This document shows positions 6,018-21,883 of a stretch of 21,941 nt of DNA, piece after piece. A program made the translations under genes and the position numbers. The stretch is taken from positions 1 through 21,941 of the IMG/VR virus record IMGVR_UViG_3300021335_000105. One strand, given 5' to 3'. The stretch comes from a virus. The notes beneath the pieces are model-generated. The model made no database searches. It was not told where the DNA came from and saw only the letters and a list, made by a program, of their open reading frames with translations. Position 1 is the first letter of the stretch; each line of letters starts with the position of its first letter.

Positions 6018-6572
6018 ATGGCTCTTTGGGGCAATAAAGACTTAGTAACGAGCACAGGAACTATTTCTATTGATTTTGCTAGTAAGACTGTTACTGGTTC
6101 TGGAACATCATTTACTGATGATGGTGTCTCCCAAGGAGATGTTATCAATGTTGGTGCTGGAGCAACTTATGGATTTGCTGTAGTTGATGCTGTTGCTAAT
6201 AATGGATCTTTAACGATCTATTCTACAGATTATATGGTTGCTGGGGTTACAACAGTTCCTGTGGGAACGACATTTGCAATTTCGCAAGAACCACTTTATG
6301 CAATGGCAGATACTGCATATGCAGCACCTGAGGTTCAAACAGGTCTCTCGACCAATCCTGTAACTCGTGTTGTTTATGGTATCGATCAGAATGAAGTTAG
6401 TGCAGCATCAACAACTGCATATGCAGTTGGACATTCTGGATGGGTTGGAATCACAACTTACATGGATAACTCCTATAATCCACCAAGACTCAGAGTTAAG
6501 CATGAAGTTCTAGTTGCTGGAGGAATTTCTACAGATGCTGGTACCGACAATACTGCCGAAGGTTTAGTTTGA
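6018..6572 (+). CDS. Probable virion structural protein, 184 aa
   Basis: Beta-rich, Gly/Thr/Ser/Ala-rich protein with few charged residues and no signal peptide. It begins MALWGNKDLV, an N-terminus I associate with a conserved cyanophage virion protein. The repeated beta-strand pattern (KTVTGSGTSF, GDVINVGAGATYGFAVV) suggests a beta-sandwich or decoration-type fold. Start choice is strong: AAGGA at 6010-6014 lies three bases before ATG 6018, and a perfect late promoter lies at 5979. The dedicated promoter and good ribosome site imply high late expression, as for a head or tail component. Exact place in the virion is unknown. Confidence 0.8.
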   Translation: MALWGNKDLVTSTGTISIDFASKTVTGSGTSFTDDGVSQGDVINVGAGATYGFAVVDAVANNGSLTIYSTDYMVAGVTTVPVGTTFAISQEPLYAMADTAYAAPEVQTGLSTNPVTRVVYGIDQNEVSAASTTAYAVGHSGWVGITTYMDNSYNPPRLRVKHEVLVAGGISTDAGTDNTAEGLV

Positions 6573-6588
6573 TAATATGAGATAAAGT

Positions 6589-6960
6589 ATGAGATTTGAT
6601 GAATTGAATGAAAGCAATTATTTGCTTTTTGCTATAAAATTCTATGATAATCCTCAGGCAATAACTAAGGACGACTTTGAAGATGATTTGAAGCGAATTA
6701 AATATATTAAAAGATTACTGAAACGATATAAGAATACGGGGGAACTCAAGACGCACCTCATACTAAATCATTTAACTGTTTTGTTTAATGTATTTGGTGA
6801 TGCAGCAGTTCCTCTATTATTTTATAATCTTGAGATTGAATTGTGGTCATGTATAAAAAGTTTTTTGATTTTTTTAAATCGACTTTCAGAATATCCAAAA
6901 ACTAAAATAAGTGAAATAAAAGAAGATACTTATTGTCTAGAAAAACTGCAAGAAATCTGA
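6589..6960 (+). CDS. Conserved cyanophage-type hypothetical protein, 123 aa
   Basis: ATG at 6589, sixteen bases after the virion gene. All-helical, soluble, with a charged N-terminus (MRFDELNESNYLLFAIKFYD), a basic centre (KRIKYIKRLLKRYKN) and a hydrophobic core (HLILNHLTVLFNVFG) that is probably buried rather than membrane-spanning. The sequence resembles a small helical protein common in T4-like cyanophages, whose function I do not know. Its TGA overlaps the ATG of the next ORF (TGATG), so it heads a coupled three-gene run to 7594. The frequent Lys/Asp/Leu pattern suits a protein-protein adaptor, but this is speculation. Confidence 0.75.
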   Translation: MRFDELNESNYLLFAIKFYDNPQAITKDDFEDDLKRIKYIKRLLKRYKNTGELKTHLILNHLTVLFNVFGDAAVPLLFYNLEIELWSCIKSFLIFLNRLSEYPKTKISEIKEDTYCLEKLQEI

Positions 6961-7178
6961 TGAATATAGATAAAATTATAAACATCGTCAGAAACTTGAA
7001 TGAAAATATGTCCGTAAGTGTTGGAAGTGGATATGTAGGTTCTGGTCCAGAAACTAGTTCTCCACAAGCATCTGCTGGGTATGATAAGATAATGAAATTC
7101 AAAAAAAGAAAGAAACCTACAATTATTGCTAAGGGGTTGATGCCCGGTGCCAGAAAACGTTGGTCTGGAGAAAAATAA
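6960..7178 (+). CDS. Small hypothetical protein, 72 aa
   Basis: ATG at 6960 overlaps the preceding TGA, which favours it over an in-frame TTG at 6933. The N-terminal helix (MNIDKIINIVRNLNE) is followed by a Gly/Ser/Pro-rich linker (SVGSGYVGSGPETSS) and a basic tail (KFKKRKKPTIIAKG, then RKRW). The layout resembles short phage proteins with an N-terminal assembly helix and a basic tail that may touch nucleic acid. Not recognised. Its TAA overlaps the ATG of the coiled-coil gene. Confidence 0.7.
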   Translation: MNIDKIINIVRNLNENMSVSVGSGYVGSGPETSSPQASAGYDKIMKFKKRKKPTIIAKGLMPGARKRWSGEK

Positions 7179-7594
7179 TGTTTTCTCAGAATTCTAAAGT
7201 AGCAGTTCTTGAATCGAAACTTGATATGTATGAGGACCTTTCCCGCGAAATGTTGGCGAAGTTAGAGTCTGCAGTAGAAAAGATATCAGAAGGAAATAAT
7301 CGTATTGCTCAAATTCTTACAAAGCACGATGAGAGAATTGAGCAAAGTATGAAAACTGATGACCTCATCATTAAGATGATTGATGAAGTCAAGAAAGAAA
7401 GTGAAAAGGATCATAAAATCATTCATGAAAGAATTGATAAAATAGAACAAAATATAAGTGCCTTATCAAAATTTAAGTGGCAGGCAGGTGCAGCTGCTGC
7501 CGTTCTAGCACTCTTGGTAGGTGCCGGAAGTAGAATTATACCATTCTTCTTGACTCCCCCCACACAACCCGTTATAATAGAGAACCAGAAGTAA
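7178..7594 (+). CDS. Coiled-coil protein with C-terminal membrane segment, 138 aa
   Basis: ATG at 7178 overlaps the upstream TAA (TAATG), so it is preferred over the in-frame TTG at 7160. Residues 5-98 form a long heptad-like coiled coil (SKVAVLESKLDMYEDL, then HERIDKIEQNISAL). Residues about 99-128 start FKWQAGAAAAVLALLVG and look like a membrane helix, with a short Pro-rich tail. The protein is probably a tail-anchored coiled coil facing the cytoplasm. Similar small proteins recur in cyanophages without known function; a role in lysis or membrane attachment of replication is conceivable. The ORF at 17663 repeats its opening SKxAVLES motif and then stops. Confidence 0.78.
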   Translation: MFSQNSKVAVLESKLDMYEDLSREMLAKLESAVEKISEGNNRIAQILTKHDERIEQSMKTDDLIIKMIDEVKKESEKDHKIIHERIDKIEQNISALSKFKWQAGAAAAVLALLVGAGSRIIPFFLTPPTQPVIIENQK

Positions 7595-13683: not shown

Positions 13684-13691
13684 GATAAATA
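13684..13691 (+). promoter_or_regulatory. Late-promoter-like GATAAATA
   Basis: GATAAATA fits the NATAAATA class reported for cyanophage late genes but not the strict T4 TATAAATA. It lies 22 bases upstream of ATG 13714 and just after a terminator, which makes a promoter here likely. Confidence 0.5.
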
Positions 13692-13713: not shown

Positions 13714-14163
13714 ATGAGCTATGAAAATCCATGGACTTATAACGGGAAAGTTTTTGACTCTGATGCTATTCATGAGTATTTTGGTTTTGTTTACTGTATT
13801 ACCAATCAGTCCAACGGACGATCGTACATTGGGAGAAAGTATTTTTGGTCGTTCAGAAAACCTCCTGGAAAAAAGAGAAAAGTAAAACAAGAATCAGATT
13901 GGAAAAAGTATTATGGTTCTTGTCCTGAGTTAAAAGAAGATATTAAAAAGTATGGTAAAGAGACCTTCAGTAGAGTTATATTGAGTTTGCACACGACTAA
14001 AGGTCTTTGTAACTATGAAGAGACCAAGCAATTATTTTTGAATAATGTCTTGAGTGAGTCTCTTGACACAGGAGGTCCGGCATATTATAATAACAATATC
14101 CTAGGCCGTTACATGCGGAAAGATTATGGAAATTTTGGAAAAGACACTGCAAGTGACACATGA
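13714..14163 (+). CDS. GIY-YIG family nuclease, 149 aa
   Basis: Motifs are readable: G24-F-V-Y27 (the GIY position, with F for I), Y38-I-G40-R41-K42 (YIG plus the conserved Arg), a Glu in CNYEETKQL as candidate catalytic residue, and a late Asn stretch YYNNN. GIY-YIG nucleases cut DNA using one metal ion. At 149 aa it has the catalytic domain with only a short C-terminal addition, so it lacks the long DNA-binding tail of most homing endonucleases. It could be a free-standing mobile nuclease or a domesticated phage nuclease. ATG 13714 has no strong ribosome site. Its end overlaps the next ORF by 38 bases. Confidence 0.88.
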   Translation: MSYENPWTYNGKVFDSDAIHEYFGFVYCITNQSNGRSYIGRKYFWSFRKPPGKKRKVKQESDWKKYYGSCPELKEDIKKYGKETFSRVILSLHTTKGLCNYEETKQLFLNNVLSESLDTGGPAYYNNNILGRYMRKDYGNFGKDTASDT

Positions 14164-14326
14164 CTGGGCAGTTGATCGAATGCACACTCTATGTGATATG
14201 AAAACTGATAACGTGCTAAAATCTGTTGAAGATGCTCATGCTATTCAGTCAGAATTTGCCGAATGGTTAGATCCTGATATTGAGGATCATGAAATTTATT
14301 CTCTGGAGTATCTTGGAGAAGATTGA
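14126..14326 (+). CDS. Small acidic hypothetical protein, 66 aa
   Basis: ATG 14126 lies within the end of the nuclease gene, with GGAAAG at 14117-14122 as a ribosome site. The product is acidic and helical (SVEDAHAIQSEFAEWLDPDI), with no signal peptide or membrane segment. An alternative ATG downstream at 14180 would shorten it by 18 residues. Not recognised. Good start spacing and strong overlap suggest it is co-translated with the nuclease; whether they interact is unknown. Confidence 0.65.
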   Translation: MEILEKTLQVTHDWAVDRMHTLCDMKTDNVLKSVEDAHAIQSEFAEWLDPDIEDHEIYSLEYLGED

Positions 14327-14381: not shown

Positions 14382-15005
14382 ATGTTCTATGTAATTAATT
14401 CAATGTTTAAATCTATTTTTGCTTCACTTTGTTTAACAGCATCGGCAGCTTGTGCTTATCCATCAATCACTGAAATTGATAATCCACCTGAAGTTGATGT
14501 TTCTGAAAATGTAGAAGAAGCAATTAAACTTGAAGTAGTTGAAAAAACATGGAAATGTCCTGAATGTAATCCTAATGAACAGTATGTTTTGGCAGAACTT
14601 CAAGAGCATACAAGAATTACTGATCGCAATGCATTAGCAACTATTCTTGGCAATATTAAATCAGAATCAAATTTCCATCCAAACATTTGTGAAGGTGGAG
14701 CAAGAGTTTCATATGATAAATGTTATTCTGGTGGTTATGGATTGATTCAATGGACTTCTATTGGACGATATGATGGACTTGGCAAATTTGCTATTAAATA
14801 TAATTGTGATCCAAGTACACTTAAATGTCAAACTCGTTATATGATTAATGAGAATATTTTCCAAAGATATCTTCCAGAGTTTGAAGGGACTGGTCGTACA
14901 GTAAGACAGTATATGGTTCCTGCATATTATTGGTTAGGTTGGGGAATCAAAGGTTATAGAGAACTTTATGCTTATGATTACACTAAGAAAATGGTATTAG
15001 TATGA
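14382..15005 (+). CDS. Exported lysozyme-like (tail-lysozyme family) protein, ~207 aa
   Basis: Three starts are possible: TTG 14367, ATG 14382 and ATG 14403. All give a signal peptide ending ...LTASAACA before YPS. Cys residues follow in KCPECNPNE. Residues about 75-130 resemble phage tail lysozyme domains: NALATILGNIKSESNFHP (candidate catalytic E95) and GGYGLIQWTSIGRYDGL, the substrate-cleft motif. These enzymes cleave peptidoglycan glycan strands. Four or more Cys in the mature part suggest disulfides formed in the periplasm. An exported, signal-peptide-bearing muralytic enzyme could act as an endolysin without a holin or remodel host wall. It starts a block of exported and membrane genes; stop overlaps the next start (ATGA). 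Confidence 0.82.
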   Translation: MFYVINSMFKSIFASLCLTASAACAYPSITEIDNPPEVDVSENVEEAIKLEVVEKTWKCPECNPNEQYVLAELQEHTRITDRNALATILGNIKSESNFHPNICEGGARVSYDKCYSGGYGLIQWTSIGRYDGLGKFAIKYNCDPSTLKCQTRYMINENIFQRYLPEFEGTGRTVRQYMVPAYYWLGWGIKGYRELYAYDYTKKMVLV

Positions 15006-15421
15006 TTAAAAAAATTAAATCGGTAATTAAATCCACAGTATCAACACTCAAAAAAGTTTCCACTAAAGAGAAAAAAGTTGAATGTGTAATTGATAATCAA
15101 AAAGTTGATTGTCAAACATTTGAAGATACTAACTGGATTGGATATCCGGCTCCTGTAAGTATTCCTTATGATCCTTGGTTTGGATCTGCACCAAAATCAC
15201 AAAAAGCAATTCAATATGAAGAAAAAGTTGCCGCAGAATCTAAAATTAAAGAAGAGCAAAGAAAAGAAAAGACTCAAGAACCTGAAAACATTCACCAAGT
15301 GATGTATGAGAAAGCAACTAAAAATTGGAACACTGTAAAAGAAACTCAAGGTGGTTCTGAGAACTTTCAAGAAGGTTCTGGTGGTTGGAACTCTGGCACT
15401 GGTATGGGGCAATATCGATGA
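15002..15421 (+). CDS. Hypothetical protein, Lys/Gly-rich, 139 aa
   Basis: ATG overlaps the lysozyme-like stop (ATGA). The basic N-terminus (MIKKIKSVIKSTVSTLKK) is amphipathic rather than a signal peptide. A pair of Cys follows (ECVIDNQKVDCQT), then a Pro/Trp segment (YPAPVSIPYDPWFG), a charged helix and a Gly-rich tail (GSGGWNSGTGMGQYR). Not recognised. It ends ATGA with the next ORF, so the three genes are probably translated together. Possible partner or regulator of the exported lysozyme-like protein by position only. Confidence 0.68.
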   Translation: MIKKIKSVIKSTVSTLKKVSTKEKKVECVIDNQKVDCQTFEDTNWIGYPAPVSIPYDPWFGSAPKSQKAIQYEEKVAAESKIKEEQRKEKTQEPENIHQVMYEKATKNWNTVKETQGGSENFQEGSGGWNSGTGMGQYR

Positions 15422-15630
15422 ATAAGGATTGGCGTTACAGTAAGGAAAAGACTGCACTAAGAACTAGTGCTCTCAATATTCTTCTTCACAAATTTGGAAG
15501 AGAAATTAATTCTGATGGAACACCAAGACATTCAAATCAAAGTATTTACGAATGTGTTCATGATTGGGTATCACAAGGTAATGTAAATACTAATGGACTA
15601 GTTAAATACTATGAGGCATATTACTCATGA
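15418..15630 (+). CDS. Small hypothetical protein, 70 aa
   Basis: ATG 15418 overlaps the previous TGA and is preferred to an in-frame TTG at 15385. The product is soluble, helical and rich in Asn, Lys and Tyr (KTALRTSALNILLHKFG), ending in KYYEAYYS. No signal peptide. The stop overlaps the ATG of the metallopeptidase-like gene. Not recognised; a real gene judging from overlaps on both sides. Confidence 0.65.
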   Translation: MNKDWRYSKEKTALRTSALNILLHKFGREINSDGTPRHSNQSIYECVHDWVSQGNVNTNGLVKYYEAYYS

Positions 15631-16289
15631 AAAATCTTTTTGCTGCATTAATAGTAGCAATTTCATTTAGTTCTTCGGCAATTGCCAAACCAACTAAAGG
15701 ATTCAATACTATGGACTCTTTGGGTTGCATGATCCTACGAGAATGCACCGACAATGTTCGAAGAATCACAAGTATCAAGGATATTAAAAATAACTATCCC
15801 GACACTGATTATTCTGCTATTAATGTGGAGTTTGACCAGATGTTGGTATCCCTTGATAAAGTCGGAGTTATGGTTTTTTTAGCAGACCAAAAATACTTTC
15901 CAGTCGGGCATCGTGGTGTTTATCATACTGTAAGTAACAACTTTTATTTGAATGATGCTTTTATGCATCGACCATCAACACTTATGACTGTTATGCGTCA
16001 TGAGGGATGGCACGCTGCACAGGATTGTATGGCAGGTAGTATTAAGAATAGTTTGGTTGCTATTATTAAACCAGAAGAAGATGTGCCCAAACTTTGGAGA
16101 GAAATGGTAGAGGACACTTATCCAAAACATTCAGTGCCTTGGGAATCGGAAGCAATGTGGGCAGGTAAGACTGAAGGCATGACTGCTAAAGCACTCTCTG
16201 CTTGTGCTACTGGTAAAATGTGGACCATATATCCTCCCACACCTCTGACTAAAAAGTGGTTGATTGAAAATAACTATATCAATAAATAA
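15627..16289 (+). CDS. Exported HExxH protein, putative zinc metallopeptidase, 220 aa
   Basis: A signal peptide is clear (MKNLFAALIVAISFSSSAIA, cut after residue 20). The mature part contains MRHEGWHAAQDC: H125-E126-x-x-H129, the zincin HExxH motif, with an adjacent Cys. A third ligand could be E173 or E175 in WESEAMWAGK about 45 residues later, as in gluzincin-type arrangements. Paired Cys around 34-40 (CMILREC) and 133 suggest disulfides. If active it would cleave proteins in the host periplasm or outer envelope. ATG overlaps the previous stop (ATGA). The HExxH match alone can be accidental; the local helix and downstream Glu raise the odds. Confidence 0.75.
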   Translation: MKNLFAALIVAISFSSSAIAKPTKGFNTMDSLGCMILRECTDNVRRITSIKDIKNNYPDTDYSAINVEFDQMLVSLDKVGVMVFLADQKYFPVGHRGVYHTVSNNFYLNDAFMHRPSTLMTVMRHEGWHAAQDCMAGSIKNSLVAIIKPEEDVPKLWREMVEDTYPKHSVPWESEAMWAGKTEGMTAKALSACATGKMWTIYPPTPLTKKWLIENNYINK

Positions 16290-16318
16290 TAAAATCCTAC
16301 ATAGGAAAACCAGCCAAG

Positions 16319-16352
16319 AAGAGTTCTGTGAAAAAACTCTTTGTGTTATAAT
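16319..16352 (+). promoter_or_regulatory. Hairpin and extended -10 promoter
   Basis: AAGAGTT (16319-16325) pairs with AACTCTT (16335-16341) over a 9-base loop. The 3' arm runs almost directly into TGTTATAAT (16344-16352), an extended -10 (TGnTATAAT) of sigma-70 type. The -35 region is poor. This is the only clear gap (16290-16385) in the run of small genes and probably starts a second transcript. A late-like AATAAATA also lies at 16281-16288. Confidence 0.5.
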
Positions 16353-16385
16353 GGTAAACTCTTTGTTGGATATTAAAACTCAAGC

Positions 16386-16580
16386 ATGACTAACTTAACA
16401 AGAGATGTATTAATCAAAACCATAGTTGCTGAAGAAATGAAAGAATGTGATGGTAATGATTATACAAAACAACTTAAGAATGTCTATCATAAATGGGAAC
16501 ATGAATCAAGTGAAGTTCTTTGTAGACAATATAACAAGATCGTGAATACAAATCTGACAGTAGATGTATTGACACCCTAA
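16386..16580 (+). CDS. Small hypothetical protein, 64 aa
   Basis: ATG 16386 lies 34 bases after the extended -10 element, without a clear ribosome site. Soluble, mixed-charge helical protein (RDVLIKTIVAEEMKECDG), no signal peptide or membrane segment. Two Cys (ECDG, LCRQ). Not recognised; moderate support from position and codon use like its neighbours. Confidence 0.6.
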   Translation: MTNLTRDVLIKTIVAEEMKECDGNDYTKQLKNVYHKWEHESSEVLCRQYNKIVNTNLTVDVLTP

Positions 16581-16604
16581 ATAGAGTTGCCTTACTCTAT
16601 ACTC

Positions 16605-16916
16605 ATGCTCGGAAACAAATCCAAAGCAAAGGTAGAAGAGAAAGACGACCACCATGAAGATAAAAGTGAAGTTCTTGGTAATCTGGTGAAAGTTGTTGTA
16701 CTTATATGGTCTGCTTCTTTACTCACCTTTAGTTACGTTAGACTTCCTAATGGTCAAAAGATTTTAGATTTTGATCCTACGTTTATTGCATCAGTCTTTT
16801 CAGGATCACTTGCTGCATTTGGTTTAAGTCCTGCTAAAAATGGTGGTTCTCAAGCAAAGGTAATTGCAAAAAAAGAACCTGAAGTTGTATCTGCAGTAGA
16901 ACCCAAGAAATACTAA
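16605..16916 (+). CDS. Two-segment membrane protein, 103 aa
   Basis: ATG 16605 chosen over TTG 16587, both in frame; no strong ribosome site. The charged cytoplasmic N-terminus (KVEEKDDHHEDKSE) is followed by a hydrophobic segment at about 27-45 (LVKVVVLIWSASLLTFSYV), a short loop with RLPNGQK, and a second weaker segment at about 59-74 (TFIASVFSGSLAAFGL). Both termini probably face the cytoplasm. Size and two-segment topology resemble small phage holins (class II), but no family is recognised. The TAA overlaps the ATG of the next gene (TAATG). Confidence 0.72.
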   Translation: MLGNKSKAKVEEKDDHHEDKSEVLGNLVKVVVLIWSASLLTFSYVRLPNGQKILDFDPTFIASVFSGSLAAFGLSPAKNGGSQAKVIAKKEPEVVSAVEPKKY

Positions 16917-17527
16917 TGAGGAAATCTACCGAGCAAGTTACAGAGCATGTACCGAGTAAGTCTCCTTTTAAAATTGTAGCATTAGTAATTGGTGGAGTTA
17001 TTGGTATTGCTCATATTGGTGTTTTGGGGCATTTGATTAATGCTAGCAACACAATTAAATACCCAATTATTAATCTTCCTGATGGGAAGTATTCTTCTTA
17101 TAATGTACAAGTTGGAAAAGATGGGTATAAAATTGAGTATCGTGCAAATGACCCAAAGGTTTTGACCTCTGAAAGGTCAATGAATTTGGATAAGGACAGA
17201 AGGGGTCTCTTTGGTGGTGGAAGTGAGCAGAGAAATGAATATCGTCGTGATGAATATACTGCTGAAGGGTATCGTAATATGCAAGGTGGAGGTGAAATAA
17301 ATGCTGAGGGAAAGTCTGCAAAAGACATAGAGTGCATCGTGGCGGACGCTGGAGCACGGAGTCAAGGTGCGATGGCAGGAACTAGTATTGCTGCTGGTGC
17401 CATTATTCCTGCGGTTGCTAATATTCCTTATATTGGATGGTTAGCATCTGGATGGGCTCTTATTTTAGGGCAAAAAGTTGGATCTGAAGTTGGATCTGAA
17501 GTTGGTAGTGTATTTAATGACTGTTAA
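16916..17527 (+). CDS. Membrane protein with Gly-rich domain, 203 aa
   Basis: ATG 16916 overlaps the previous stop. One N-terminal membrane helix at about 20-41 (IVALVIGGVIGIAHIGVLGHL), then a polar segment of about 100 residues with charged and Gly-rich parts (GLFGGGSEQRNEYRRDEY). The C-terminal region is small-residue-rich and hydrophobic (SIAAGAIIPAVANIPYIGWL, then ASGWALILGQ), resembling glycine-zipper segments that insert in membranes. It ends with a short VGSE repeat and NDC. A pore-forming or membrane-anchored envelope role is plausible. The stop overlaps the start of the 51-aa gene. Confidence 0.72.
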   Translation: MRKSTEQVTEHVPSKSPFKIVALVIGGVIGIAHIGVLGHLINASNTIKYPIINLPDGKYSSYNVQVGKDGYKIEYRANDPKVLTSERSMNLDKDRRGLFGGGSEQRNEYRRDEYTAEGYRNMQGGGEINAEGKSAKDIECIVADAGARSQGAMAGTSIAAGAIIPAVANIPYIGWLASGWALILGQKVGSEVGSEVGSVFNDC

Positions 17528-17682
17528 TGGAATTGTTTTTAAGACCACTGAATGATTTTAATGATCCTACTTGGAGTGTAATTATATCTCTTGCCATTCT
17601 TTTGGGAGGAGTTTTATATTATGTTGCATATATACTTCGTATGGCTTCTGATGAAATGAGAAATGAGCGACCTGACGAATAA
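17527..17682 (+). CDS. Single-span small membrane protein, 51 aa
   Basis: ATG 17527 overlaps the preceding TAA (TAATG). The protein has an N-terminal polar segment, one hydrophobic helix (WSVIISLAILLGGVLYYVAYIL, shown by its first and last parts WSVII and VAYIL) and a short charged tail (SDEMRNERPDE). Too short for a family call. Topology is unclear. It belongs to the coupled run of membrane genes and overlaps the 26-codon remnant at 17663. Confidence 0.62.
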   Translation: MELFLRPLNDFNDPTWSVIISLAILLGGVLYYVAYILRMASDEMRNERPDE

Positions 17683-17743
17683 GGATGCTGAACAAGATTC
17701 TAAACTTGCTGTTCTAGAAAGTAGAGTAAATTATGAATTCTAG
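17663..17743 (+). pseudogene. 26-aa remnant resembling the coiled-coil gene at 7178
   Basis: ATG 17663 opens a frame that reads MSDLTNKDAEQDSKLAVLES and stops after RVNYEF at TAG 17741-17743. SKLAVLESRV matches SKVAVLESKL near the start of the coiled-coil membrane protein at 7178. The match ends where the next gene begins (ATG 17733), as if a paralogue had been cut off. It may still be translated as a short peptide. The match is short, so chance is possible. Confidence 0.4.
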
Positions 17744-17984
17744 AGGGCAAAATATTGTTATTCAACAACCAGAATGTGATGGTTATATTAAAGTTGGTTT
17801 TTTTGAAGGATGTTTAGGTGATTTTAGTACATTACATTTAATTTTAATTTTAAGTGCATCTGGATTATTGCTCATCATCTGGAAATCTCCCTCTATTATA
17901 AAAGAACTAAAGTGGTATAAGTTTAGGCAAAGATATTATGATTTTCGTTCTGTAATGGAAAAGAAATTTTATAGGAAAAAGTAA
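17733..17984 (+). CDS. Single-span membrane protein, 83 aa
   Basis: ATG 17733 lies inside the remnant ORF. The N-terminal 33 residues are polar with two Cys (C15, C27). They precede one membrane helix at about 34-50 (LHLILILSASGLLLIIW) and a strongly basic C-terminal tail (KWYKFRQRYYDFRSV, then KKFYRKK). The positive-inside rule puts the tail in the cytoplasm and the Cys-bearing N-terminus outside. Not recognised. TAA overlaps the next ATG (TAATG). Confidence 0.7.
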   Translation: MNSRGQNIVIQQPECDGYIKVGFFEGCLGDFSTLHLILILSASGLLLIIWKSPSIIKELKWYKFRQRYYDFRSVMEKKFYRKK

Positions 17985-18217
17985 TGCAAAAAGTCATTAA
18001 CATAATCGCACTTCTTTCAGGTCTTGTATCACTATCAGTCGTTGGTGGTGGAGCATATCTCTATCTCAATAAGGATGCAATGATTGAAGATGTAAGAGCA
18101 AAGGCAACAGAAGAAATCACAAAGGCAATCACAGAAGCACTTCCTGGAATGATTGATAGTGCTATGCCGGAGGTTCCTGAGTTACCAAAAGAAACTGGTG
18201 GTGTGTTGCCTTTCTGA
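17984..18217 (+). CDS. Membrane-anchored small protein, 77 aa
   Basis: ATG 17984 overlaps the previous stop. One N-terminal hydrophobic helix at about 5-28 (INIIALLSGLVSLSVVGGGA) acts as anchor. An amphipathic helical stretch rich in A/E/K follows, then a Pro-rich tail (PEVPELPKETGG). A similar protein is, in my recollection, common in T4-like cyanophages, function unknown. N-in topology with a short outer domain is compatible with, but does not show, a spanin-like role. Confidence 0.74.
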   Translation: MQKVINIIALLSGLVSLSVVGGGAYLYLNKDAMIEDVRAKATEEITKAITEALPGMIDSAMPEVPELPKETGGVLPF

Positions 18218-18265
18218 CAATTTGATGAGAAATGTTAAATAACAATAATATTACTGCTCTTTTCA

Positions 18266-18376
18266 ATGACTAGATCTGTACCTAGAAAAAAACAAAAAGA
18301 TAATCAAGATAAGTTCTTCTTGTATGTTATTTTTTTTCATCTCTTCACTGCCATTTCTAACATCTTTAAAGATTGA
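18266..18376 (+). CDS. Very small membrane protein, 36 aa
   Basis: ATG 18266 to TGA 18376. A basic N-terminus (MTRSVPRKKQKDNQDK) precedes one hydrophobic helix (FFLYVIFFHLFTAISNIF). The stop overlaps the ATG of the Pro-rich gene (TGATG), the same coupling seen through this block, which is the main reason to believe it. No recognisable family; no clear ribosome site. Confidence 0.5.
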   Translation: MTRSVPRKKQKDNQDKFFLYVIFFHLFTAISNIFKD

Positions 18377-19023
18377 TGCCTGAAATTCGTGATATAAAAA
18401 TAAATGAAATAAGTATTCCTCCAGTTAGAAGTATCTTTACTGGACCACCACAAGCAATACCAAATTCACCACCAGTCACTGTTACAATAGGTTCTCCTAT
18501 TGTTGATATTCCAGGATGTGTAGAGTTTAATCCTAATGGTCCTGGATTAGTTGATAGTGATCCAGCAGGTAATAGAGTGTTGTGTGATGGTAATGTGCCA
18601 TCATTTAATCCAATTGAGTATGAACCAAATCAGGCAATTATGTCTGGACCTCCAGAACCTATTCCTTCTCATGATGAGACACCAAAACCTTCAATAATAC
18701 CAGAGATACCAATACCATCTGGGACACCTCCTGCCCCTGCTATTGTGGATAAGAAAGAAGAAAAATCAATAGAAGTAGTAGAGGATCCAACATTCGTGGA
18801 GCAGTATCTACCATCAACAGAAGAAGTTATTACGACAGTTATTATTGCTGCTACAGCAGCTTCTGCAGCAGTGTTTGGTAAACCAATAGCAGATTTTTTA
18901 CTTAAGTTAATTAAACCTACTGTTAGAAAAGTAATTCAGAAAGTAAAGGATAAGGTAGGTGTTACTCCTGAGGTGCTGTCTGTGAGGGAGAGACGCCAGT
19001 TGCAGAGGGACTTGAGAAAGTAG
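18376..19023 (+). CDS. Pro-rich protein with membrane segment, 215 aa
   Basis: ATG 18376 overlaps the stop of the 36-aa ORF and is preferred over TTG 18373. The N-terminal two-thirds are extended and Pro-rich (ISIPPVRSIFTGPPQAIPNS) with two Cys (PGCVEF, VLCDG). A hydrophobic segment at about 152-170 (VITTVIIAATAASAAVFG) is followed by a basic C-terminus (KPTVRKVIQKVKDKV). A similar Pro-rich protein is, to my knowledge, widespread in cyanophages, function unknown. The last 62 bases overlap the end of the convergent minus-strand gene. Confidence 0.78.
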   Translation: MPEIRDIKINEISIPPVRSIFTGPPQAIPNSPPVTVTIGSPIVDIPGCVEFNPNGPGLVDSDPAGNRVLCDGNVPSFNPIEYEPNQAIMSGPPEPIPSHDETPKPSIIPEIPIPSGTPPAPAIVDKKEEKSIEVVEDPTFVEQYLPSTEEVITTVIIAATAASAAVFGKPIADFLLKLIKPTVRKVIQKVKDKVGVTPEVLSVRERRQLQRDLRK

Positions 19024-19717
19024 GAATAGAATGTCGGTGTGGGGCAATAGCATTCTTATTCATCACGGTTACATCGGCACAAATCTTTGCCATCTCTGTG
19101 CCGGGAGTGAACATAATCCCCTCCTTCATTAGATTTCCACAATTTTTAAGACGTGCCAGTTCAAAATCCAATCTCTTATTAGCAGTGAGTTGTTGCTGTA
19201 AAGCAATCTGTGTTGCTGCTGCTTTCTTACACTGATCTTGTAGTTTTTGATCCAGTGGTTTACTCCATGTAGCAGAGAATCCAACACTCAAATTATAATT
19301 ATCTTTTTGTCCTGTTCTTGTACGTTTGTAGAATACTACGTCACCAGGATTATCTAAAATACCATCACCAATAGGGTTGCCATTCTCATCAAAGGCACCA
19401 AAGTTATCTGTGACATCATATACAGGGTCATTATAATAAGGTTCATATGGTCTGGCAGATGACACACTGCCCGTTACATATGGAGTGAAGTTTAGAGTAG
19501 GTCCCTGACACTGGATTCCACCACCATAAGTGTTTGTGATGTACGGACCCTGTAAAACTTGTATTGCCTGATTAGTAACAGAACCTGAAGAGTTAGCAAC
19601 AGGATTAGCTGTGGCGCTAACACCACCCACAGTATTAGCCAATGCTTGAGATGGCGATAGTAGTCCAAGAAGAATTATTCCTACTGACTGAATATGGAGG
19701 TTGTATCTGTTACGGAT
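18962..19717 (-). CDS. Exported Cys-containing protein, about 243-251 aa, start unclear
   Basis: The frame is well supported by its signal-peptide-like stretch (VGIILLGLLSPSQALA) and mature sequence, but no ATG, GTG or TTG precedes that stretch except an ATG at 19846, which would overlap the upstream gene by 166 bases with an implausible Arg/Ser-rich leader. Initiation from ATC 19717 (MRNRYNLHIQSV) or ATT 19693 would give a good signal peptide. The mature part has Tyr/Asn/Gly-rich segments, four Cys and an Ala/Gln-rich helix (KKAAATQIALQQQLTANKRL). It probably acts outside the cytoplasm with the two genes upstream of it. A frameshift from the preceding gene or a sequencing error are alternatives. 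Confidence 0.65.
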   Translation of the reverse strand: MRNRYNLHIQSVGIILLGLLSPSQALANTVGGVSATANPVANSSGSVTNQAIQVLQGPYITNTYGGGIQCQGPTLNFTPYVTGSVSSARPYEPYYNDPVYDVTDNFGAFDENGNPIGDGILDNPGDVVFYKRTRTGQKDNYNLSVGFSATWSKPLDQKLQDQCKKAAATQIALQQQLTANKRLDFELARLKNCGNLMKEGIMFTPGTEMAKICADVTVMNKNAIAPHRHSIPTFSSPSATGVSPSQTAPQE

Positions 19718-20121
19718 TCTATGAGAGTTTCTCTTTGGATTATTGTTTGATTCTGTAATCCTGGTCCTTGATAGGATTCTGTGAATTGAAATGCTGCTCC
19801 AGGATTTGATTGTTTCCAGGTTTGATTTCCTTGTAATCCTGTCCATGTCGAAGTCACTCCGTCTATAGTATTAGTTCCCGCAGTTGATGGGGTTAAATTG
19901 ATTGTTCCACTCGCAGTTTCTACATTACTTCCGGTTACAGAATATTGATAACCAGTAGAGTAATCCATCGAGTTAATGGTTTCTGTAATCTTTTGTGTCG
20001 TTTCAGTATGACTCGTCATAGAGCCTTGGGTAAAGTTAGGCACGACTGGGACAGCTTGTGCTGCTCCATGTGCCATACCAAGAATCAATCCGAGACCGAT
20101 TGCTTCTTGTAGTCTTGTCAT
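19681..20121 (-). CDS. Exported Thr/Ser-rich protein, 146 aa
   Basis: ATG (20121-20119) overlaps the TGA of the upstream gene (ATGA). The N-terminal signal peptide (IGLGLILGMAHGAAQA, cut after about residue 23) is followed by a beta-rich Thr/Ser/Asn/Gln-rich domain (TQKITETINSMDYSTGYQYS) with no Cys. Composition resembles secreted beta-sheet or fibre-like proteins. Similar proteins recur in cyanophages, function unknown. The 3' end overlaps the beginning of the next exported gene. Confidence 0.78.
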   Translation of the reverse strand: MTRLQEAIGLGLILGMAHGAAQAVPVVPNFTQGSMTSHTETTQKITETINSMDYSTGYQYSVTGSNVETASGTINLTPSTAGTNTIDGVTSTWTGLQGNQTWKQSNPGAAFQFTESYQGPGLQNQTIIQRETLIESVTDTTSIFSQ

Positions 20122-20633
20122 CAGTCAAAAATAGATACTTCAGATACAAATTGTCCGATAGCAGATGTGCCAGCACCACCAGCACCTACAGTGATAGCAC
20201 CATCTGTTGTGATAGTACCAGTAGGAGTACCAGTTCCAGCAGCAGTAGAGGTAAGATCGCCAAAGTTAGCAACATCACCAACACTTACAGCAGCAGAAGG
20301 AATAGCATCACCAGCAGTAAAGGAGTTTGAGAAACTGAATGTAGTACCATCAGTTGTTTGATATGCTGTAGGAACAGAACCAGGAGCAACACCGCTGGAA
20401 AGAGTTCCAAGACCACCTACAGAATAATCGGCAGATGCTTTTGAACCACCACCAACATCGAGAGTTACACCATTACCGGATACAGAGTAGGAGTTTCCAA
20501 CTCTTACTGCTCTGGTAGCAGCAGCATCAACCGTTAGTTGAACACTAGATGAAAGTTTATGTGTAAGGGCACCGGCATTTGCTGCCGTACCTGTCATCAA
20601 TAACATTCCAAAAGCAATTAATGCTTTTTTCAT
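20121..20633 (-). CDS. Exported Gly/Ala/Ser-rich protein, 170 aa
   Basis: ATG 20633-20631 with a clear signal peptide (MKKALIAFGMLLMTGTAANA, cut after residue 20). The mature domain is almost entirely G, A, S, T and V (VSGNGVTLDVGGGSKASADY; TAAGTGTPTGTITTDGAITV) with very few charges, suggesting a beta-sheet secreted or surface protein. It is the first gene of a three-gene minus-strand operon behind CATAAATA at 20668-20661. No Shine-Dalgarno sequence is visible. Function not known. Confidence 0.8.
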   Translation of the reverse strand: MKKALIAFGMLLMTGTAANAGALTHKLSSSVQLTVDAAATRAVRVGNSYSVSGNGVTLDVGGGSKASADYSVGGLGTLSSGVAPGSVPTAYQTTDGTTFSFSNSFTAGDAIPSAAVSVGDVANFGDLTSTAAGTGTPTGTITTDGAITVGAGGAGTSAIGQFVSEVSIFD

Positions 20634-20660: not shown

Positions 20661-20668
20661 TATTTATG
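20661..20668 (-). promoter_or_regulatory. Late promoter CATAAATA for exported operon
   Basis: On the minus strand this reads CATAAATA (NATAAATA class), 27 bases upstream of the ATG at 20633. It is the mirror image of the plus-strand element at 20680-20687. Confidence 0.65.
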
Positions 20669-21520: not shown

Positions 21521-21883
21521 ATGATCAAATCTGTATTCGCAGCAACTGCTGCTCTCTCCATGTCCGCTGGTGCTGCTTTTGCAGGTCCTTACGTGAACGT
21601 CGAAGCCAACTCTGGTTTCGTCGGCAGCGACTATCAAGGAACTGTAACCGATGCTCACGTAGGATACGAAGGTCCTCTGGGTGAATCTGCTGCTTGGTAC
21701 ATCCAAGGTGGTCCTGCTCTCGTCTCTCCTGACGGTGCTGAAACCGAAGTTGAGTTCTCCGGTAAGGGTGGTGCTTCTGTTGCACTGACCGATGCTCTGA
21801 GTCTCTATGGTGAAATTTCGTTCATCACTGGTGACAACGACACTGGTTACGGCACCAAGGCTGGTGTTAAGTACTCCTTCTGA
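21521..21883 (+). CDS. Exported beta-rich (porin-like) protein, 120 aa
   Basis: A signal peptide is clear (MIKSVFAATAALSMSAGAAF, cut after AFA about residue 21). The mature 99 residues show alternating beta-strand pattern (YVNVEANSGFVGSDYQG; AAWYIQGGPALV; GTKAGVKYSF) ending in a C-terminal aromatic (Phe), as in outer-membrane beta-barrels, though it is short for a full barrel. No Cys. Codon use differs from most of the window (AAC, TTC, GGT, GCT, TCC favoured) and GC is higher, pointing to strong expression or host origin. It has its own late promoter, long leader, ribosome site and terminator. Function unknown; an outer-membrane or surface role is inferred. Confidence 0.8.
   Translation: MIKSVFAATAALSMSAGAAFAGPYVNVEANSGFVGSDYQGTVTDAHVGYEGPLGESAAWYIQGGPALVSPDGAETEVEFSGKGGASVALTDALSLYGEISFITGDNDTGYGTKAGVKYSF

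Follow-up and report, generated by a model that had tools for sequence, protein, structure and literature searches.

Many of the ocean's main photosynthesizers are killed by cyanophages. In phage T7, the lysis region encodes a class II holin (17.5) and the spanins 18.5/18.7. For T4-like cyanophages, the initial annotation of IMG/VR record IMGVR_UViG_3300021335_000105 held that there is no agreed lysis set; this is consistent with the literature, in which we found none of the families described here assigned as a holin or spanin of cyanophages. The window analyzed is the whole stretch (positions 1 to 21,941), a 21.9-kb virus fragment whose nearest relative among named phages is the T4-like cyanophage S-SKS1. 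It carries a block of genes for membrane and exported proteins that is likely a late-expressed, modular lysis locus, with DUF6450 as holin, lyz as endolysin, mpt as a further exported protein, membrane helpers, and exported proteins that may help break the outer membrane.

Most of the core of this block corresponds to a gene cluster that Sullivan et al. (2010; PMC3037559) described without a function. The cluster consists of T4-GCs 218, 219, 234, 235, and 237 plus a “plasmid stability” gene, and the main text of that paper gives it no function. It was reported in all of 16 cyanophages except S-PM2, the main text reports it only for T4-like cyanophages, and mobility via the plasmid stability gene was proposed. 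In an S-SM2 mapping, its members are DUF6450, g605, g570, g848, g564, and g568, all six of which are in the window. In contrast to the 2010 description, the core described here is also found in podovirus and siphovirus-like cyanophages and is linked to lysozymes. The name “plasmid stability” for g568 lacks Pfam support (ParM_N, E 0.098), and the protein resembles a small membrane protein.

DUF6450 and canonical lysozymes

Holins comprise unrelated families, and similarity to a known family is not strictly defining. The DUF6450 protein in the window has 103 amino acids (aa) and a charged tail, and the family was found in 445 phage records (E up to 1). A class II-like holin would be a small protein with two transmembrane (TM) segments and a charged C-terminus; of the two hydrophobic segments of DUF6450, one is strong and the other weaker. 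In 35 relatives, the first TM segment is clear (mean Kyte-Doolittle [KD] hydropathy 1.86) and the second is weaker (mean KD 1.50); TM and signal calls in this study are simple hydropathy heuristics.

The strongest link of DUF6450 to canonical lysins came from a scan for PF00959 lysozymes that used the S-PM2 lysozyme as query and covered 66 loci. DUF6450 starts 4–20 nt 3′ of a PF00959 lysozyme gene on the same strand in 13 metagenomic contigs from IMG/VR, where contigs are partly redundant, and it lies 1.7–2.7 kb downstream of one in 17 further contigs. This adjacency to a canonical lysozyme gene is new to this study. A holin gene is expected to adjoin an endolysin gene; DUF6450 does so in contigs of relatives, not in the window itself.

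S-PM2 and S-CREM1 have no DUF6450, lyz, or mpt, and they carry a PF00959 lysozyme after nrdB. In S-PM2, a C39-like peptidase precedes this lysozyme and an exported lytic-transglycosylase-like protein is 3′ of it; a C39-like peptidase is near the PF00959 lysozyme in 64 of the 66 loci. The “lipoprotein precursor” annotated near the S-PM2 lysin (6439-6801 of locus L269) is an exported double-psi beta-barrel (DPBB) lytic-transglycosylase-like protein (PF03330). The C39 and PF00959 cassette of S-PM2, S-CREM1, and S-SRM01 resembles lyz/mpt in place (after nrdB or giy-u14126) and in pairing a peptidase with a muramidase, but its enzymes belong to other families and its lysozyme has no signal peptide. 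Both kinds of lysozyme can occur together: in S-CAM7, S-SRM01, and ACG-2014f, a PF00959 lysozyme is within 1 kb of lyz. Among 14 named phages, DUF6450 and mpt appeared to exclude PF00959 lysins (Fisher p 0.003 and 0.03, respectively). This idea was dropped because the wider scan found co-occurrence, with DUF6450 near 29/66 and mpt near 12/66 of these lysozymes.

Late promoters

A late promoter with the sequence NATAAATA has been published for these phages (PMC2984593). Three sequences resembling it are in the block (Table 1). Among relatives, NATAAATA is found 28–30 nt upstream of giy (18 of 19 when g764 is upstream), at about the same distance ahead of DUF6450, and ~28–36 nt upstream of g564; it also has a fixed distance 5′ of g20934. 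The motif is ~90–116 nt upstream of u16386 in 19 of 34 relatives. It precedes 17/17 g764 genes, g764 being related to a family of virion proteins, and 0/39 nrdB genes. The block is predicted to give three late transcripts, and this placement of putative late promoters ahead of giy, DUF6450, and g564 is described here for the first time.

Conservation across phage morphotypes

DUF6450 is also present in T7-like cyanopodoviruses and in a siphovirus-like cyanophage. In cyanopodoviruses, the order phrog_9426-DUF6450-g650-g848 is directly ahead of TerS/TerL and is nearly constant over 80 contigs. The neighbors of DUF6450 are kept in 74/74, 65/67, and 51/51 contigs (g650 adjoins it in the 65/67), and TerS is within 2.5 kb in 37/39. 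In P-SSP7, P-SSP3, NATL2A-133, S-RIP1, and S-TIP37, phrog_9426 or a related Pro-rich open reading frame (ORF) is followed by DUF6450, with phrog_650 and mostly a g848 relative on the 3′ side; TerS comes next in P-SSP7, P-SSP3, and S-RIP1. The siphovirus-like MED4-117 has the order DUF6450-g564-g650-g848. Homology across morphotypes was confirmed by hhalign for DUF6450 (99.8%), g848 (99.9%), and g650 (99.5%), and the profiles of g570 and phrog_9426 have only the C-terminal hydrophobic/basic tail in common (84%). In the window, 166 nt belong to both the g848 and the g650 ORF (minus strand, different frames), and the same pair overlaps by 67 nt in podovirus P-SSP3.

The podovirus copies resemble the T7 lysis region in lying between the tail fiber and TerS/TerL genes, and DUF6450 is likewise small with two hydrophobic stretches, of which the second is weak. 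They differ in that no holin-family match was found for DUF6450 and exported core proteins without a lipobox are present instead of spanins. The position ahead of TerS is the one that the holin and spanin genes have in T7, and its occupation by these cyanopodovirus genes is a new observation.

Exported lysozyme-like protein and predicted metallopeptidase

The initial annotation recognized an exported lysozyme-like protein and an exported HExxH protein, and both calls were borne out. Protein lyz matches PF18013 above the cut-off (45.5 vs. 28.2 bits), and its profile matches phi29 gp13 (PDB 3csr, E=0.00045), with the invariant E88 aligned to gp13 E45. It therefore has the muralytic domain and catalytic Glu expected of an endolysin. 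Its N-terminus is Sec-type, and the ATG at 14403 suits the signal peptide better than the first-stage start at 14382. Most lyz relatives have a signal peptide, typically ending in AACA followed by YPS, or an Ala/Gly-rich N-terminal anchor (56/88 were positive by an AxA heuristic); podovirus S-RIP1 lyz has neither. The gp13-like Glu and the export signal of lyz, like its proximity to PF00959 lysozymes, are new to this study. The catalytic domain and E45 position are shared with gp13, but gp13 has a second domain and serves in tail-tip morphogenesis, whereas lyz is a standalone exported protein of ~200 aa. One short contig (L155) bears lyz copies on both strands, perhaps as an assembly chimera.

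In mpt, the motif is HEGWH at residues 125-129, all but W128 of which is invariant in 34 relatives. Gluzincins have HExxH and a downstream Glu ligand; H125, E126, and H129 are invariant, as are the third-ligand candidates E173 and E175. The N-terminus is Sec-type, and relatives have a signal peptide and conserved cysteines. The predicted structure has a predicted local distance difference test (pLDDT) score of 88. Its resemblance to zincin metallopeptidases is weak: structural matches are headed by HExxH metallopeptidases or proteins related to that fold, with Z at most 6.1 and Foldseek E at least 0.16. No meaningful match to the mpt sequence was found in PDB. Host origin of mpt was considered and rejected on the basis of two of the five GTDB matches, of which one belongs to phage P-TIM40 sequence within a bacterial assembly and the other includes the entire phage block. 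A 188-kb contig of a Nonlabens xiamenensis assembly (NZ_RMVE01000006.1) is 98.7% identical to Prochlorococcus phage P-TIM40 over the 8 kb compared and is likely phage sequence inside a bacterial genome record.

Organization of the block

All ORFs named in the initial annotation are present where it placed them. Matches to phrog_512 (lyz), 4639, 4136, 591 (mpt), 721 (DUF6450), 605, 814, 568, 8670, and 570 make chance ORFs unlikely; u17733 alone among these ORFs has no PHROG match, and it was seen in 10 of the loci compared. Gene starts were inferred via profile alignment. The overlapping stop and start codons were confirmed: ATGA is found at 15002, 15418, and 15627, a TAATG-type overlap is found at 16916, 17527, and 17984, and most ORFs of the block are joined by overlaps of 1–4 nt. 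Of the small membrane proteins proposed earlier, most are conserved, but the product of 16916 (g605) has 203 aa and is not small, and 18266 (g8670) is borderline. The latter is the weakest ORF of the set, with 8/46 relatives passing the membrane call. An AlphaFold model of g605 (pLDDT 63, predicted template modeling score [pTM] 0.25) had no fold match.

The limits first given to the block, 14382-18376, proved too narrow, since the conserved unit runs on to 20633. Nor is it a single 4-kb unit. Its separable parts are a mobile lyz-g4639-g4136 group, sometimes without g4136; mpt; and a core of DUF6450-g605-g814-g568-g570 facing g848, g650, and g564. In 219 IMG/VR loci, this core is apparent from gene order, mpt often adjoins DUF6450, and lyz-g4639-g4136 is either before mpt or after g564.

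Table 1. Genes and promoter-like sequences of the block (positions in the window).
Feature	Family	Position	Strand	Description
Late-promoter-like GATAAATA		13684..13691	+	30 nt ahead of giy start (giy-u14126-lyz-g4639-g4136-mpt run)
giy	phrog_447	13714..14163	+	GIY-YIG-like ORF, first of run; also before C39/lysozyme in other phages
u14126		14126..14326	+	Small conserved ORF between giy and wall-degrading genes
lyz	phrog_512	14403..15005	+	Exported Phage_lysozyme2 protein; predicted endolysin, catalytic E88
g4639	phrog_4639	15002..15421	+	Travels with lyz
g4136	phrog_4136	15418..15630	+	Travels with lyz
mpt	phrog_591	15627..16289	+	Exported HExxH protein; predicted gluzincin metallopeptidase
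Late-promoter-like AATAAATA		16281..16288	+	105 nt ahead of u16386
u16386		16386..16580	+	Small soluble conserved ORF
DUF6450	PF20048, phrog_721	16605..16916	+	Predicted holin; first TM segment strong, second weaker
g605	phrog_605	16916..17527	+	TM segment at N-terminus, then periplasmic part; Gly-rich hydrophobic hairpin at C-terminus; low-confidence model
g814	phrog_814	17527..17682	+	Single-TM protein
u17733		17733..17984	+	Single-TM protein, rare among relatives
g568	phrog_568	17984..18217	+	Named “plasmid stability”; N-terminal TM and helical tail
g8670	phrog_8670	18266..18376	+	36-aa ORF, doubtful membrane protein
g570	phrog_570	18376..19023	+	Pro-rich, with hydrophobic/basic tail at C-terminus; relative of podovirus phrog_9426
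g848	phrog_848	18962..19846	-	Exported Cys-containing protein
g650	phrog_650	19681..20121	-	Exported Thr-rich protein, ends SIFSQ
g564	phrog_564	20121..20633	-	Exported protein, related to g650
Late-promoter-like CATAAATA		20661..20668	-	Ahead of g564

Interpretation and alternatives

A common function in lysis or envelope modification had been proposed for the whole 4-kb run. The run is not supported as a unit, and lysis is best supported for DUF6450 and lyz because of the canonical lysozyme neighbor elsewhere, the T7 holin-like slot in podoviruses, and the late promoters. From conservation, export signals, motifs, late-promoter spacing, and the position of DUF6450 in other phages, we infer the biochemical roles and joint action as follows. 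Transcribed late, DUF6450 would accumulate in the inner membrane during the export of lyz and mpt. As a holin, DUF6450 would permeabilize the inner membrane, and triggering would collapse it so that the muramidase can act. Protein lyz would be the endolysin, a Sec-exported periplasmic muramidase, and mpt an exported periplasmic metallopeptidase; their targets may be peptidoglycan or envelope-tying proteins. Proteins g605, g814, g568, and g570 may be membrane helpers, and g848, g650, and g564 on the facing strand would probably help break the outer membrane, replacing spanins.

Several observations weigh against this interpretation. The second hydrophobic stretch of DUF6450 is weak (mean KD 1.5), and no match to known holin families was found (in Pfam at E up to 10, DUF6450 itself was matched and otherwise only weak noise); for these two reasons its assignment as a holin is provisional. 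The exported core proteins have no known fold, and inspection of the g848, g650, g564, and g605 sequences found no lipobox, so spanin membership is not claimed for them. No recognized lysozyme of the families tested was found in Prochlorococcus phages and podoviruses with DUF6450, except S-RIP1. A lack of conserved linkage between the lysozyme-like gene and the membrane genes, which the initial annotation said would refute its proposal, is seen in part, as lyz is separable from the core: in Syn9, lyz is ~27 kb away beside psbA, and mpt is after psbD. A pairing that favors the interpretation was seen in the first 17 cyanomyovirus records searched, of which 12 have both lyz and mpt, often far apart, and 5 have neither; however, S-CAM7, S-SRM01, ACG-2014f, and DSL-LC02, further phages with PF00959 lysins, break this pairing with lyz and no full-length mpt. 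Finally, contig counts do not represent independent lineages.

It is possible, if rather doubtful, that DUF6450 with g570/phrog_9426, g650, and g848 (plus g564 in T4-like phages) forms a lysis system common to T4-, T7-, and siphovirus-like marine cyanophages, with an unrecognized holin and Sec-exported proteins that break the outer membrane independently of spanins. With a holin candidate in three morphotypes, the timing of cyanobacterial lysis can be put to the test. If lysis is the true role, a cluster known since 2010 without a function would gain one, and should the exported proteins prove to open the outer membrane, they would represent a novel final step of lysis in Gram-negative-type cells.

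An unlikely alternative is envelope modification or superinfection exclusion, in which the proteins would remodel the infected-cell envelope, for example for receptor masking or nutrient uptake. Consistent with this, the majority of the core consists of exported or membrane proteins that lack wall-degrading domains, an outer membrane protein-like gene (g417) is nearby, and DUF6450 is retained in Prochlorococcus phages that have neither lyz nor mpt. However, expression from late promoters would be late for exclusion, and the adjacency of DUF6450 to lysozyme in other phages and the T7 lysis slot in podoviruses favor lysis.

Less probable still is a role in the virion or its assembly, with DUF6450 and the exported proteins as minor particle proteins and lyz as a tail-associated lysozyme, as some records label it. 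PF18013 is called “phage tail lysozyme,” two database matches are labeled tail lysozyme, structural genes are likewise under late promoters, and the podovirus copies adjoin tail fiber and terminase genes. On the other hand, lyz, mpt, g564, and g650 have Sec signals, and a separate PF18013 domain is carried by long ORFs (1173 aa in S-PM2 and 466 aa in S-SKS1), which are likelier tail enzymes than lyz. The 2010 study (PMC3037559) included virion proteomics of S-SM1 along with data on S-PM2 and Syn9; its main text treats the cluster as hypothetical rather than virion structural, and its virion-proteome section does not name the cluster genes.

That unrelated late genes merely piled up in a recombination-prone region after nrdB is very improbable: genes near lyz and mpt vary in order and GIY-YIG-like genes flank the block, but the core composition is kept in three phage morphotypes.

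Other genes in the window

The name NAD synthetase for phrog_447 (giy, 13714-14163, plus strand) seems wrong, as the gene matches GIY-YIG/homing endonuclease families. Protein g417 (phrog_417; 21521-21883, plus strand), some relatives of which are labeled DUF680 or outer membrane protein, is exported and resembles a small outer-membrane barrel; S-SM2 has two copies, and one is beside lyz in podovirus S-RIP1. The ORF at 7160-7594 (plus strand) has 62% identity over 97 aa to an S-CREM1 gene annotated “holin-like”; it encodes a coiled coil and one C-terminal TM segment and is directly ahead of DNA primase.

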